Shown here in pieces: positions 8,252 to 22,729 of a DNA stretch of 64,000 bases (position 1 is the first letter of the stretch; each line of letters opens with the position of its first letter). Position numbers and translations under genes: made by a program. Where the stretch lies: assembly GCA_944387065.1 (NCBI GenBank), contig CALXDM010000001.1:62001-126000 (forward strand), given 5' to 3'. The DNA comes from an uncultured Oscillospiraceae bacterium. Its GTDB lineage: Bacteria > Bacillota > Clostridia > Oscillospirales > Oscillospiraceae. The notes beneath the pieces were generated by a model that was given only the letters and a program-made list of their open reading frames with translations, had not been told where the DNA came from and searched no databases.

Positions 8252-8280
8252 AAAAAGGGTGGGACTGGCCCACCCTTTTT
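8252..8280 (-). terminator. intrinsic terminator between scfA and scfB
   Basis: Perfect 12-bp complementary arms (8252-8263 and 8269-8280) around a 5-nt loop, with A5 on one side and T5 on the other, so the hairpin can terminate in either direction. It sits in the 84-bp gap between peptide and maturase genes and should limit read-through into scfB. Confidence 0.9.
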
Positions 8281-17689: not shown

Positions 17690-18694
17690 TTAACACACTT
17701 TCTCTAACTTAGATTCCAGGAAGGCCCTGGTCAGATCCGCGCAGGCCTGCACATCCCGCAGGTCCACCAGCTCCATGGGGCTGTGACCGTACCGCCAGGG
17801 AATGGAAATGCCCCCGGTGATCACCCCGGCCCGGTTGAGGTGGATGGGACCGGCGTCGGTGCCGCCGGCGCGGATCACATCCCGCTGGGCCGGAATGCCC
17901 TTCTGCTGGGCCAGCTGCATCAGCCGCTCCACCATCCAAGGGTGGCAGATCACCGAACCGTCCATCACCTTCACCGCCGCGCCGCCCCCCAGCACGCTGC
18001 TCACCAGGTGCTTGGATCCAGGCTGGTCGTCAGCGGGGGTGACGTCCAGGGCCAGGCCGTAGTCCGGCTCAATAGCCCAGGCGGCGGTTTTCGCCCCCCG
18101 GGTGCCCACTTCTTCCTGGGCGGAGAAGACGAAATACAGGTCGTTATCCGTCTCCCCCAGCGCGGACATGGCTGCTAGCTGGGCCGCACACCCGGCCCGG
18201 TTGTCCAGATAGGGGGCGCTGACTCGGTGGCCCAGCTGGATCAGCCGGGTGTCAAACACCGCCGCGTCGCCGATCTGGACCAGGCGCTGGGCTTGCTCCC
18301 GGTCGGCTGCGCCCACGTCCAGGAACAGGTCGGAGCGCTTGCGCTTGCCAGGCTCCACATCGGCCTGGGCCTGCACCACGCCCCCCTGCCCGTTTTGAAA
18401 GCGCACCGGCGTGTGCACCACCCGGTCAGGGGAAATGCCACCGAGCCCTCCCACCCGGATATGGCCCTGCTCGTCCACATGGGTGGCCACCAGGGCAATG
18501 GTGTCCATGTGAGCGGAGACCATCACCCGAGGTCCACTCCCCCGCCGGTGGCAGATGAGGTTGCCCAGGGTGTCCCGCCGGAGCTCGTCGCAATAAGGTG
18601 CGGCCAGCTCCTGGATGAGCTGGGCCACTTCATCCTCCTTGCCGGATGGGCCGTAGGCGGCGGTAATCCGCCGCAAGGTTTCCATCAGATCCAT
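17690..18694 (-). CDS. M42 family metallopeptidase (copy 1)
   Basis: 334 residues, related to glutamyl/deblocking aminopeptidases that form self-compartmentalised tetrahedral dodecamers. Metal-ligand motifs: SAHMDTIALVATHVD (about 59-73), SAPYLDNRAGCAAQL (about 174-188), the catalytic Glu pair in SAQEEVGTRGA (about 208-218) and a C-terminal His in YGHSP. AGGAGG lies 9 nt before the ATG. It is the last of three tandem paralogues, which diverge clearly from each other, so different peptide specificities are likely. Confidence 0.93.
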   Translation of the reverse strand: MDLMETLRRITAAYGPSGKEDEVAQLIQELAAPYCDELRRDTLGNLICHRRGSGPRVMVSAHMDTIALVATHVDEQGHIRVGGLGGISPDRVVHTPVRFQNGQGGVVQAQADVEPGKRKRSDLFLDVGAADREQAQRLVQIGDAAVFDTRLIQLGHRVSAPYLDNRAGCAAQLAAMSALGETDNDLYFVFSAQEEVGTRGAKTAAWAIEPDYGLALDVTPADDQPGSKHLVSSVLGGGAAVKVMDGSVICHPWMVERLMQLAQQKGIPAQRDVIRAGGTDAGPIHLNRAGVITGGISIPWRYGHSPMELVDLRDVQACADLTRAFLESKLEKVC

Positions 18695-18709
18695 GCCTAC
18701 TGCCTCCTG

Positions 18710-19735
18710 TCAGATTTGCTCTGCCACCGCGGCCATAAACAGCCGGGCCAGGGTGAGCATATGTTCCATATCGGAGATACAGGCCACGCTGCTAGGGGCG
18801 TGGAGATAGCGCACCGGGGCGGAGATCCCCGCCACCCGCACGCCGGCCTTGGTTCGCTGGATGGCCCCGGCGTCGGTGCCGCCGGCCAGATAGTGCTTCA
18901 CCTGCCAGGGCAGCCCGTTGTCCTGGGCCAGCTGGCGCAGCAGTTCAAACAGCCCCCGGTCATAGATGGCGCTGCCGTCCATCCAGGACAGCACCGGCCC
19001 CCTGCCGGGCCAGCACACCTGGGCATGGGGTTCCAGGGCTGGGTTGTCCGCCGCGGTGGTGCCCTCCAGCACCAGGGCGATCTCCGGTGTGACGGAGAAG
19101 GCCGCCCCAAATGCCCCCCGGGTGCCCACCTCCTCCTGCACCGTAAAGACGAAGGTGCAGTCCATGGGCAGGGGCTCCTCCAGCAGCTTGATCAGCACCG
19201 CGCACCCCACCCGGTCGTCGATGGCCTTGGCCTTGAGCATCCCCTGGCCGAACTCCAACACGTCGCTTTCAAACACGGCGCAGTCCCCTGGACTGACCAG
19301 CGCCTGGGCCTCCTGCCGGTCCCGGGCGCCGATGTCCAGGTAGTAGTCCTCCAGGCGGGGGACCTTCTTGCGCTCTTCCAGTGTGGTCAGGTGGATGGCC
19401 TTCAGCCCGATCACCCCGGGCACCTGCCCCTCCCCCACCCGCACCTGTTTGCCCAGCAGGACCCGGCGGTCGATGCCGCCCACGCAGTGGAACTTCAGGT
19501 AGCCCTCTGAAGTGATGGAGCGCACGATCAGCCCCACCTCGTCCATGTGGGCGCACAGCATCAGCCGGCTGCCGGTGGGCTTAGTCCCCCGCTTGAACAC
19601 GATGAGGTTGCCCATGGCGTCTACCCGGATGCGGTGGGCATAGGGGGCGGCGCGGTCCCTGAGATAGGCGCGCACCGGCTCCTCAAAGGAGGACACCCCG
19701 GGCAGAGCGCACAGCGCCTTCACCGTCTCAATCAT
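18710..19735 (-). CDS. M42 family metallopeptidase (copy 2)
   Basis: 341 residues. Motifs AHMDEVGLIVRSI, AKAIDDRVGCAVLIK, TVQEEVGTRGAFGAAF, LAGGTDAGAIQ and RYLHAP show the di-metal site and catalytic glutamates of the M42 family. GAGGAGG precedes the ATG at 19735; eleven further upstream codons belong to the shadow of copy 3. The start overlaps the stop of copy 3 by 8 nt, indicating translational coupling. Probable cytosolic aminopeptidase that finishes peptide breakdown. Confidence 0.93.
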   Translation of the reverse strand: MIETVKALCALPGVSSFEEPVRAYLRDRAAPYAHRIRVDAMGNLIVFKRGTKPTGSRLMLCAHMDEVGLIVRSITSEGYLKFHCVGGIDRRVLLGKQVRVGEGQVPGVIGLKAIHLTTLEERKKVPRLEDYYLDIGARDRQEAQALVSPGDCAVFESDVLEFGQGMLKAKAIDDRVGCAVLIKLLEEPLPMDCTFVFTVQEEVGTRGAFGAAFSVTPEIALVLEGTTAADNPALEPHAQVCWPGRGPVLSWMDGSAIYDRGLFELLRQLAQDNGLPWQVKHYLAGGTDAGAIQRTKAGVRVAGISAPVRYLHAPSSVACISDMEHMLTLARLFMAAVAEQI

Positions 19736-20768
19736 CCCTTGCGCCCTCCTCTCCCAGACCCTGGGCAAAGGCAGCCAGCAGCCTGGCCGTGTGCTCCAGA
19801 TCGTCCAGGTCCACCACCTCCACTGGGGTGTGCATATATTTTAGGGGCAGAGAGAGCACGGCGGTGGCCACCCCCTCGTTGCAGATCTGCATCTTCCAGG
19901 CGTTGGTGCCCGAACTGCCACCCATGACCTCTTGCTGCACCGGGATGCCCAGCGCCTGGGCCTGGTCCAGCAGCCGCCGGGACATCCAGCGGGTCATGTT
20001 GGGGCCGATGCCCACCGCCGGGCCCGACCCCAGCGTGAAGCTCTGGTCCTTAGGGCTGTCCGGCGTGCTGCCATGAGTGACATCCACCGCCACGCACCAG
20101 TCCGGCTCCAGGGCCTGGACGGCAGTGATGGCCCCGGCGCTGGACGTCTCCTCCCTCACGCTGCCCAGGAAATACACGTCCACATCCAGAGGCTGCGCCC
20201 GGAGCAGCTGGGCAGTCCGCAGCAGGGCCACAAAGCAGGAGCGGTCATCCATGGCCTTGCCGCACACCTGGCGCTGGCCCAACCGGAGAAAGCTTGGACG
20301 GAACACCATGGGCGTCCCCACCGGGATCTCCCGCTGGGCCTGCTGCTGGCTCAGTCCCACGTCCACATAGAGTTCGTCGATGGCCGGCGCCTTCTCCCGC
20401 TCGGCGTCGGTCAGCACATGGGGGGGCAGGCAGGCCACCACCCCAAACCGGGGCGGATGGGTGAGGATGGTCAGCTCCCGGTCGGGAAGCATCCGAGGAT
20501 CCACCCCACCGATGGCAGCAAAGCGGAGGAAGCCGTCCTTTACCCCGGTCACCACCAGCCCAATCTCATCCAGATGGGCGTCCAGCAGCAGCTTGCCCGC
20601 TCCCGGCCGCCCGCAACGGCGCAGGCCAACCAGATTGCCCATCCGGTCGATCCACACTTGGTCCACCAGCGGTTCCAAAAGGGTCTTGGCCACCTGAGCC
20701 ACTCGCGACTCAAAGCCGGACGGCCCTTCCTGCAGGCACAGGAGCCGGAGCATTTCACAGCTGTCCAT
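19728..20768 (-). CDS. M42 family metallopeptidase (copy 3)
   Basis: 346 residues with DAHLDEIGLVVTGVK, GKAMDDRSCFVALL, GSVREETSSAGAI and KYMHTPVEVVDL. The usual AQEEVGTRGA motif is altered here to VREETSSAGA: the paired Glu is kept but the glycine-rich part is changed, so this copy is the most divergent. Starts at 20768 after GGGGGAGGGG, overlapping the murD stop by 14 nt. The overlap ties the M42 set to murD translation. Activity is inferred from the retained metal ligands. Confidence 0.9.
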   Translation of the reverse strand: MDSCEMLRLLCLQEGPSGFESRVAQVAKTLLEPLVDQVWIDRMGNLVGLRRCGRPGAGKLLLDAHLDEIGLVVTGVKDGFLRFAAIGGVDPRMLPDRELTILTHPPRFGVVACLPPHVLTDAEREKAPAIDELYVDVGLSQQQAQREIPVGTPMVFRPSFLRLGQRQVCGKAMDDRSCFVALLRTAQLLRAQPLDVDVYFLGSVREETSSAGAITAVQALEPDWCVAVDVTHGSTPDSPKDQSFTLGSGPAVGIGPNMTRWMSRRLLDQAQALGIPVQQEVMGGSSGTNAWKMQICNEGVATAVLSLPLKYMHTPVEVVDLDDLEHTARLLAAFAQGLGEEGARDD

Positions 20769-22170
20769 CCCGCGCCCCTCCCCCTTCCGCAGGCTCCAGC
20801 GCCCGCACATAGTCTTTGAATGCCCGGCCCCGCTGGGCAAAGTTTTCAAACTGGTCAAAGGAGGCGCTGGCCGGGGAGAGCAACACCGCGTCCCCTGGTC
20901 GGGCCAACTCGTTTGCCCGGGCCACCGCCGCTTCCAGCGTATCGCACCGGACGATCTCCGGCCGGCCAGGCCGGTAGCCCGGGGAATTCTGGGTGGCTTC
21001 CTGGATCTTGTCTGCGGTCTGCCCCGTGAGGATTAATACCTTTACATGATTAACAATCTCTGGCCCGAGCGCGTCATAGGACAGGTTCTTGTCATATCCC
21101 CCGGCCAGGAGGATCACAGGGGTGGAAAAGCAGCGCAGCCCCGCCATGGTCCGGGTTGGGCTGGAGGCGATGGAGTCGTTGTACCAGCGCACCCCTGCCC
21201 GCTCCCGCACCAGCTCGATGCGGTGCTCCACCCCGGGAAAGTGCCTGGCAAAGTCCTGGATGGTCTGGCTGGATACCAGCCCCTCTACCGCGGCGATGGC
21301 CGCCAGGTAGTTTTCCAAGTTATGGACCCCGGGCAGCAGGATGTCTGAGGCAGCCAGCACTGGGCGACCGCCGCTAAAGATCATCCCATCCCGCAGGCAC
21401 ACCCCGCCCTCCAGCGTCCGCTGCCGGCTGAACAGGGTAACCCGCCCCTTGGCCTGCTGGGCAAAGGAGGCGGTGAGGGGCTGATCGGCGTTGAGCACCA
21501 GCCGGTCCTGGTCCTCCTGATAGGCGAAGATGTTCCGCTTGGCCTGCACATACTCCTCCATGTCCCGGTGTACATCCAGATGGTTGGGGGACAGGTTGGT
21601 GATGACCGCCACGTTGGGGCTTTGGCGCATAGTCAACAGCTGGAAGGAGGACAGTTCCAGCACCACATAGGCGTCCGGCGGGATCTGATCCACCTCACAC
21701 AGGAGGGGGTGGCCGATGTTGCCACCCACAAAGGTGCGGTAGCCGGCATCCCGAAGCAGACCGGCGATGATGGTAGTGGTGGTGGTCTTGCCGTCAGAGC
21801 CCGTCACGGCGATGACCTGGCAGGGGCACAGCGCCAAAAAAGCCTCCATCTCCGAGGTGAGCTTGGCCCCTCGCTCCACTGCCCGGGCCAGCTGGGGCAC
21901 GTCCGGGCGCAGGCCGGGGGTGCGGAAGATCACATCCGCCCCGTCCAGGCCATCCAGGTAGTCCGCTCCCAACCGGGCTTCCAGCCCCTGGGCCTCCCAG
22001 CGCTCGATCTGGCCGTGAAACTGCTCCCGCTCCCTTCGGTCGCAGGCCAGCACGGACACGCCCCCCTCCAGCAAGCGTTCGATCAGCGGGGTGTTGGACA
22101 CGCCGATGCCCACCACGGCAACCCGCTTGCCCTGCAGCGTGCGGATGAATTCCTGCAAGATTGACTGCAT
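20755..22170 (-). CDS. murD: UDP-N-acetylmuramoyl-L-alanine--D-glutamate ligase MurD
   Basis: Adds D-glutamate to UDP-MurNAc-L-Ala in cytoplasmic peptidoglycan precursor synthesis, using ATP. The 471-residue protein has an N-terminal Rossmann-like domain (GKRVAVVGIGVSNTPLI), the Mur ligase ATP motif VTGSDGKTTTTTIIAG, NLSPNHLDVH, and a C-terminal domain with YNDSIASSPT and LLAGGYDKN. The start at 22170 matches the family N terminus and has GGGGGAGG upstream. First gene of the long minus operon; its leader holds a terminator hairpin at 22201-22230. Confidence 0.96.
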   Translation of the reverse strand: MQSILQEFIRTLQGKRVAVVGIGVSNTPLIERLLEGGVSVLACDRREREQFHGQIERWEAQGLEARLGADYLDGLDGADVIFRTPGLRPDVPQLARAVERGAKLTSEMEAFLALCPCQVIAVTGSDGKTTTTTIIAGLLRDAGYRTFVGGNIGHPLLCEVDQIPPDAYVVLELSSFQLLTMRQSPNVAVITNLSPNHLDVHRDMEEYVQAKRNIFAYQEDQDRLVLNADQPLTASFAQQAKGRVTLFSRQRTLEGGVCLRDGMIFSGGRPVLAASDILLPGVHNLENYLAAIAAVEGLVSSQTIQDFARHFPGVEHRIELVRERAGVRWYNDSIASSPTRTMAGLRCFSTPVILLAGGYDKNLSYDALGPEIVNHVKVLILTGQTADKIQEATQNSPGYRPGRPEIVRCDTLEAAVARANELARPGDAVLLSPASASFDQFENFAQRGRAFKDYVRALEPAEGGGARDGQL

Positions 22171-22200
22171 GGATCGCAATGCCTCCCCCAATGGTTTTCC

Positions 22201-22230
22201 AAAAAACACGGGCCGGCCGGAGCCCGGCCC
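22201..22230 (-). terminator. terminator hairpin in the murD leader (possible attenuator)
   Basis: On the minus strand GGGCCGG and CCGGCCC (22224-22230 and 22210-22216) pair around a 7-nt loop, followed by GTG and six T (22201-22206). It lies within about 40 nt of the predicted murD transcription start and about 30 nt before the murD ATG. No gene lies between promoter and hairpin. Confidence 0.7.
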
Positions 22231-22245
22231 CAAGTCTGAACTCAT

Positions 22246-22274
22246 ATTATACCGCAACAAGTCTCATTTGACAA
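22246..22274 (-). promoter_or_regulatory. murD operon promoter
   Basis: On the minus strand: TTGTCA (22269-22274), 17 bp, TATAAT (22246-22251). Its -35 shares five bases with the -35 of the divergent rnpB promoter. Confidence 0.8.
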
Positions 22275-22296
22275 TCACCCAAAGTTGAAGTACAAT
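22268..22296 (+). promoter_or_regulatory. rnpB promoter
   Basis: TTGACA (22268-22273), 17 bp, TACAAT (22291-22296): near consensus. The predicted start is about 22303, the 5' end of the RNase P RNA. Confidence 0.85.
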
Positions 22297-22302
22297 CGTC
22301 TC

Positions 22303-22691
22303 ACGAGTAAGCTGGACAGCCGCGTGGGCAGGCCGAAAGGCCGTCTATGAGGAAAGTCCGGGCTCCACAGGGCAAGGATAACGGGTAACGCCCGCCGAAG
22401 GCGACTTCAGGAAAAGTGCAACAGAGATATACCGCCTCGCCCCTCTGGGGGAGCAGGCGCAGGGCGCCTCTGGCGCATGCGCCCACGAGGTAAGGGTGGA
22501 AAGGCGGAGATAAGCGCCCGCCCGATGACTGGGAACTGCTCATCGCTGTAAACTCTATCCGGAGCAACACCGTGGTAACGCGTCAAGGCCGGCCCGGCCG
22601 CGTTTTGGAGGTGGCTAGAACGCATCGGCAACGGTGCGTCAAGATAGATGGCTGTCTTAAAGGACAGAACCCGGCTTACAGGCTTGCTCGC
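22303..22691 (+). ncRNA. rnpB: RNase P RNA, bacterial class A
   Basis: The catalytic RNA that removes tRNA 5' leaders. The terminal helix P1 is visible: GAGTAAGC at 22305-22312 pairs with GCTTGCTC at 22682-22689. Conserved region I reads GAGGAAAGTCCGGGCTCC (near 22348), and conserved region V appears as ACAGAACCCGGCTTA near the 3' end. AACGCCCGCCGAAGGCGAC is also typical. Length about 389 nt. Open reading frames across this stretch are spurious. Confidence 0.97.
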
Positions 22692-22692
22692 T

Positions 22693-22729
22693 GGAAAGGC
22701 CCTGCCCCCTTGTGGGACAGGGCCTTTCC
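22693..22729 (+). terminator. rnpB terminator hairpin
   Basis: Perfect 12-bp arms (22693-22704 and 22718-22729) directly after the RNase P RNA. There is no long U-run after it, so termination or 3' trimming is inferred from position. Confidence 0.6.

Follow-up and report, generated by a model that had tools for sequence, protein, structure and literature searches.

The window analysed here, a stretch of 64,000 nucleotides from an uncultured Oscillospiraceae bacterium, contains murD on the minus strand and, facing away from it, rnpB on the plus strand. The assignment of murD is based on an NCBIfam match of 371 bits (vs a cut-off of 212). Two predicted promoters lie back to back between the genes, and their -35 boxes share 5 bp. 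The murD leader, counted from a putative start site at ~22239, carries a GC-rich hairpin followed by a T tract. The features of the locus are the following:

20755..22170, minus strand: murD coding sequence, 471 aa (NCBIfam TIGR01087)
22171..22239, minus strand: murD leader, from a start site placed ~7 nt past the -10 box
22182..22189, minus strand: murD Shine-Dalgarno GGGGGAGG, read from the sequence
22201..22209, minus strand: GTG and T6 tract 3' of the hairpin, read from the sequence (T6 at 22206-22201)
22210..22230, minus strand: hairpin, GGGCCGG-loop-CCGGCCC, 7 GC pairs
22246..22251, minus strand: predicted murD -10 box TATAAT, in 39/39 genus members
22268..22273, plus strand: predicted rnpB -35 box TTGACA, in 39/39 genus members
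22269..22274, minus strand: predicted murD -35 box TTGTCA, spacer 17, in 39/39 genus members
22291..22296, plus strand: predicted rnpB -10 box TACAAT, spacer 17, from the sequence and the genus comparison
22304..22694, plus strand: rnpB, RNase P RNA class A (RF00010, 241 bits, model positions 1-367 of 367)

Downstream of murD and on the same strand are three tandem M42-type aminopeptidase-like genes (17690-20858), each of which matches aminopeptidase models, none up to an NCBIfam cut-off. Elsewhere in the window, a palindromic hairpin at 8257-8275, with a T run on each strand, is likely a two-way terminator.

The arms of the murD leader hairpin, GGGCCGG (22230-22224) and CCGGCCC (22216-22210), close a loop of 7 nt that reads GCUCCGG on the minus strand, and the hairpin alone has a computed folding energy of -17.5 kcal/mol. 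Directly 3' of this all-GC stem of 7 bp comes GTGTTTTTT; on the same strand the U6 run is followed by GGAAAACC, then by the Shine-Dalgarno and finally by the murD ATG at 22170. The initial annotation had described a 7-bp GC hairpin with a T tract about 40 nt from the murD start, and both points hold: the element occupies 22230-22201 on the minus strand at a level above that of shuffled sequences, and the hairpin ends 39 nt ahead of the ATG. The interval given there for the terminator, 22201-22245, ends at the base adjoining the murD -10 box (22251-22246). The element thus has the short GC-rich hairpin of an intrinsic (Rho-independent) terminator. A GUG separates the U tract from the stem, and 7 of the 9 nt after the stem are T. 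A GUG ahead of the T run is expected to weaken termination.

A strict rule asked for a stem of 7 bp, 6 or more of them GC pairs, and for 6 or more T among the 9 nt that follow. Dinucleotide shuffling of the 70-nt leader satisfied it 15 times in 20,000. Across 464 kb of the host genome it returned 16 sites, most of them between called genes, whereas three Markov-model controls gave 0, 0 and 1. The terminator-like shape is above chance. Because strict-rule sites stand so far above the shuffles and the Markov controls, the shape appears to be that of a real terminator, with the GUG as a blemish. The sequence agrees with the earlier proposal that the leader contains an intrinsic terminator, although the U tract does not follow the stem directly.

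It had also been stated that no gene precedes the hairpin. This is correct insofar as no same-strand gene leads into it, but the divergent rnpB had been missed. Since rnpB runs the opposite way, the possibility that the hairpin terminates an upstream gene was rejected. A coding explanation was likewise considered, as an open frame runs into murD from TTG 22260 and ATG 22245, and was discarded because (i) these two codons are at or ahead of the predicted start site, (ii) a 1-nt insertion in the hairpin of the sister species breaks the frame and (iii) the MurD alignment of relatives begins at ATG 22170.

The promoter pair is kept in all 39 genus genomes having a murD match (3 of the 42 genomes sampled have none), and these carry 37 distinct promoter sequences. 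At the family level, the exact promoter pattern is found in 42 of 150 genomes and, as judged by eye, lies immediately 5' of rnpB in only six of them (G000, G002, G003, G117, G131 and G150). The pattern is adjoined by murD at L108 (G131) and L128 (G117), and there is no murD match at L124 (G150); murD is present at 23 of the 30 best family rnpB loci. The overlap of the murD and rnpB promoters, conserved in the genus, is firmer biology than the hairpin and deserves more attention; it could couple a cell-wall gene to the RNase P RNA through polymerase competition. No paper on divergent murD and rnpB promoters was found in a literature search that scarcely reached subscription papers.

The distribution of the hairpin is far narrower. 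The last 100 nt before murD were scanned at 39 genus loci, at 83 other family loci (123 family loci had rnpB or the promoter pattern, and 40 of these gave no N-terminal murD match in the stretch examined) and at 6 loci of a second genus; 6 genomes among the 132 in which rnpB was matched were not included (fragments, contig ends or overlooked). Within the genus, only the window leader and that of the sister species, Candidatus Enterenecus merdae (L003/L032), carry the hairpin and T tract. The sister murD is 94% identical to that of the window; its hairpin is bulged and weaker (-11.8 vs -17.5 kcal/mol) and keeps the outer GGG/CCC pairs and the T6. Between the two species, the leader has diverged by 5.6%, the promoter strip by 1.7% and rnpB by 1.6%. 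In the other 37 genus leaders, the sequence past the murD -10 box is unrelated to that of the window and cannot be aligned in distant members. Among the other family leaders, two of the 83 pass a loose rule: L136, which belongs to the second genus, and L224, which has a poor T tract. In this second genus (that of G094/L136), a comparable element is present in 3 of the 6 genomes with murD (L252, from the same genome as L136, L253 and L254). It consists of a stem, T6-7, GGAACC and a Shine-Dalgarno, the T run ending at ~+44/45, nearly the promoter distance seen in the window; the hairpin of L255 lacks a T run. This recurrence in two genera may be due to chance. A conserved attenuator was rejected on these counts, the element being in only 2/39 genus and 2/83 other family leaders.

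We favour, at about an even chance, the hypothesis that the murD leader carries a young, leaky and unregulated early terminator. According to this proposal, which is built from the sequence, transcription of murD would begin at a sigma-70-type promoter that shares part of its -35 box with the divergent rnpB promoter, and the short murD leader would have gained a hairpin and a U tract, at ~+10 to +39, in the window species and its sister. A polymerase fresh from the promoter would terminate at times, releasing a ~39-nt RNA, and would otherwise read through into murD; the element, if active at all, would restrain murD in a fixed, leaky way and not as a switch. Here we infer the start site, the occurrence and extent of termination and the lack of regulation. 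A murD start near 22239 would place the hairpin from ~+10 and the T run, with the possible RNA end, at ~+39, and this predicted promoter position makes a terminated RNA of that length plausible. The hairpin probably halts some transcripts early at most. That most transcripts end there, as the initial annotation had suggested, seems doubtful because murD is an essential gene, because of the GUG ahead of the U tract and because the sister hairpin is weaker. If the element does terminate, murD, a cell-wall ligase gene, would join those bacterial genes whose transcription is held back in the first 40 nt of the leader, and the site would show how quickly such leader terminators come and go.

We rank an unregulated leaky terminator above a neutral accident, and consider a role in translation or a regulated antiterminator less likely. 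A serious contender, to which we would give roughly one chance in three, is nonetheless that the hairpin and T run arose by accident in this lineage, within a leader that changes quickly, and that they affect murD transcription hardly or not at all. The absence of the element from 37/39 genus leaders and the unalignable leaders of the more distant members speak for such an accident, and a looser folding-energy rule was reached by 51 of 2,000 leader shuffles. Moreover, at the loose threshold, the divergent leaders of the sampled genome (called with a rough homemade gene caller, so that some may be wrong) show no excess over the complementary strand (7/66 vs 7/66), which indicates that leader terminators as a class are not enriched in this genome and that the site may be functionless. 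Under the strict rule, however, an accident becomes harder to sustain given the rarity of matching shuffles; the sister species also retains the hairpin topology and the T6 although murD third codon positions have diverged between the two (63/471, 13%), and a similar arrangement is found in the second genus.

The U run could alternatively act on translation, by pairing with the purine-rich Shine-Dalgarno in the read-through RNA. In fourU-type RNA thermometers, a run of U pairs with the Shine-Dalgarno, and the minimum-energy fold of the window leader does pair GUGUUUUU with the Shine-Dalgarno region; in the predicted folds of the second-genus leaders, the U run pairs with the Shine-Dalgarno and AACUGC. 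Yet U-G pairing to a Shine-Dalgarno is easily obtained by chance, a slightly different piece of the leader folds another way without this pairing, and the whole window leader is no more stable than its shuffles (z +0.80; 160 of the 200 were as stable or more so); we therefore regard a thermometer-like role as unlikely. Regulated attenuation, in which an antiterminator fold or a bound factor would govern read-through into murD, appears a little less likely still. The site does lie between promoter and gene, as an attenuator requires, and premature termination is argued to be widespread in E. coli 5' UTRs in the accessible part of PMC7815308. However, with the hairpin starting at ~+10, only ~9 nt precede its 5' arm, leaving no room for a competing upstream antiterminator, and the Rfam search of the leader for cis-regulatory families returned none at the gathering score, only weak matches (E 1.2-8.7); a classical switch would thus have little room. 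No mutually exclusive fold is conserved among the 39 genus leaders, since the leader itself is unrelated in the other members of the genus. The antiterminator put forward initially is accordingly poorly supported, whereas the remarks that neither a known riboswitch nor an obvious leader peptide is present stand. Reading the leader by eye revealed no separate small frame with its own start, Shine-Dalgarno and stop before the terminator: there is no ATG; the only GTG shares the murD frame, uninterrupted by a stop, as do three of four TTG codons; and the fourth TTG is out of frame, at the end of the T run and without a Shine-Dalgarno. As for published work on transcription attenuation or a leader terminator at murD, no paper was found, the search having scarcely reached subscription papers.

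Three described systems, each consulted through the accessible part of its paper, help to place the locus. With E. coli RNA polymerase in vitro, an intrinsic terminator functions within a transcription unit of 38 bp (PMC6978380), which makes a terminator at ~+39 possible: the murD element would be similarly promoter-proximal (~39 nt, as predicted, vs a 38-bp unit). In that system the polymerase remains on the DNA once the RNA has been released and is able to start again; that it could do so at a promoter of opposite orientation is only proposed as possible (PMC6978380). It is tempting to speculate that the early terminator serves the promoter pair, a halted polymerase being passed back to either of the two neighbouring promoters, murD or rnpB; if so, aborted murD transcription would feed RNase P RNA synthesis. 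We consider this very improbable, and the published system relied on an artificial template and the E. coli enzyme, the accessible text naming no divergent promoter as tested. The bidirectional promoters of E. coli described by Warman et al. share a -10 element, with starts commonly 18, 10 or 23 bp apart (PMC12825309). Like them, the promoters of murD and of its divergent neighbour rnpB have core DNA in common, so that one polymerase should exclude the other; unlike them, they share the -35 region, their -10 boxes are separate (22246-22251 and 22291-22296) and their predicted starts are ~64 bp apart, which sets them outside the definition of Warman et al. Finally, the IspZ/ispU (uppS) 5' UTR terminator of E. 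coli combines a short stem with a U tract and yields leader RNAs of 60 and 81 nt; mapped 3' ends, Northern blots and reporters back its termination, and IspZ is reported to be an sRNA sponge (PMC7815308). The murD element differs in its gene, in the length of its RNA (~39 nt) and in being predicted from sequence alone. As in ispU, a short stem and a U tract lie in the 5' UTR of a cell-wall precursor gene, and the ispU 5' UTR, as far as the accessible text describes it, is the nearest described case that we found.
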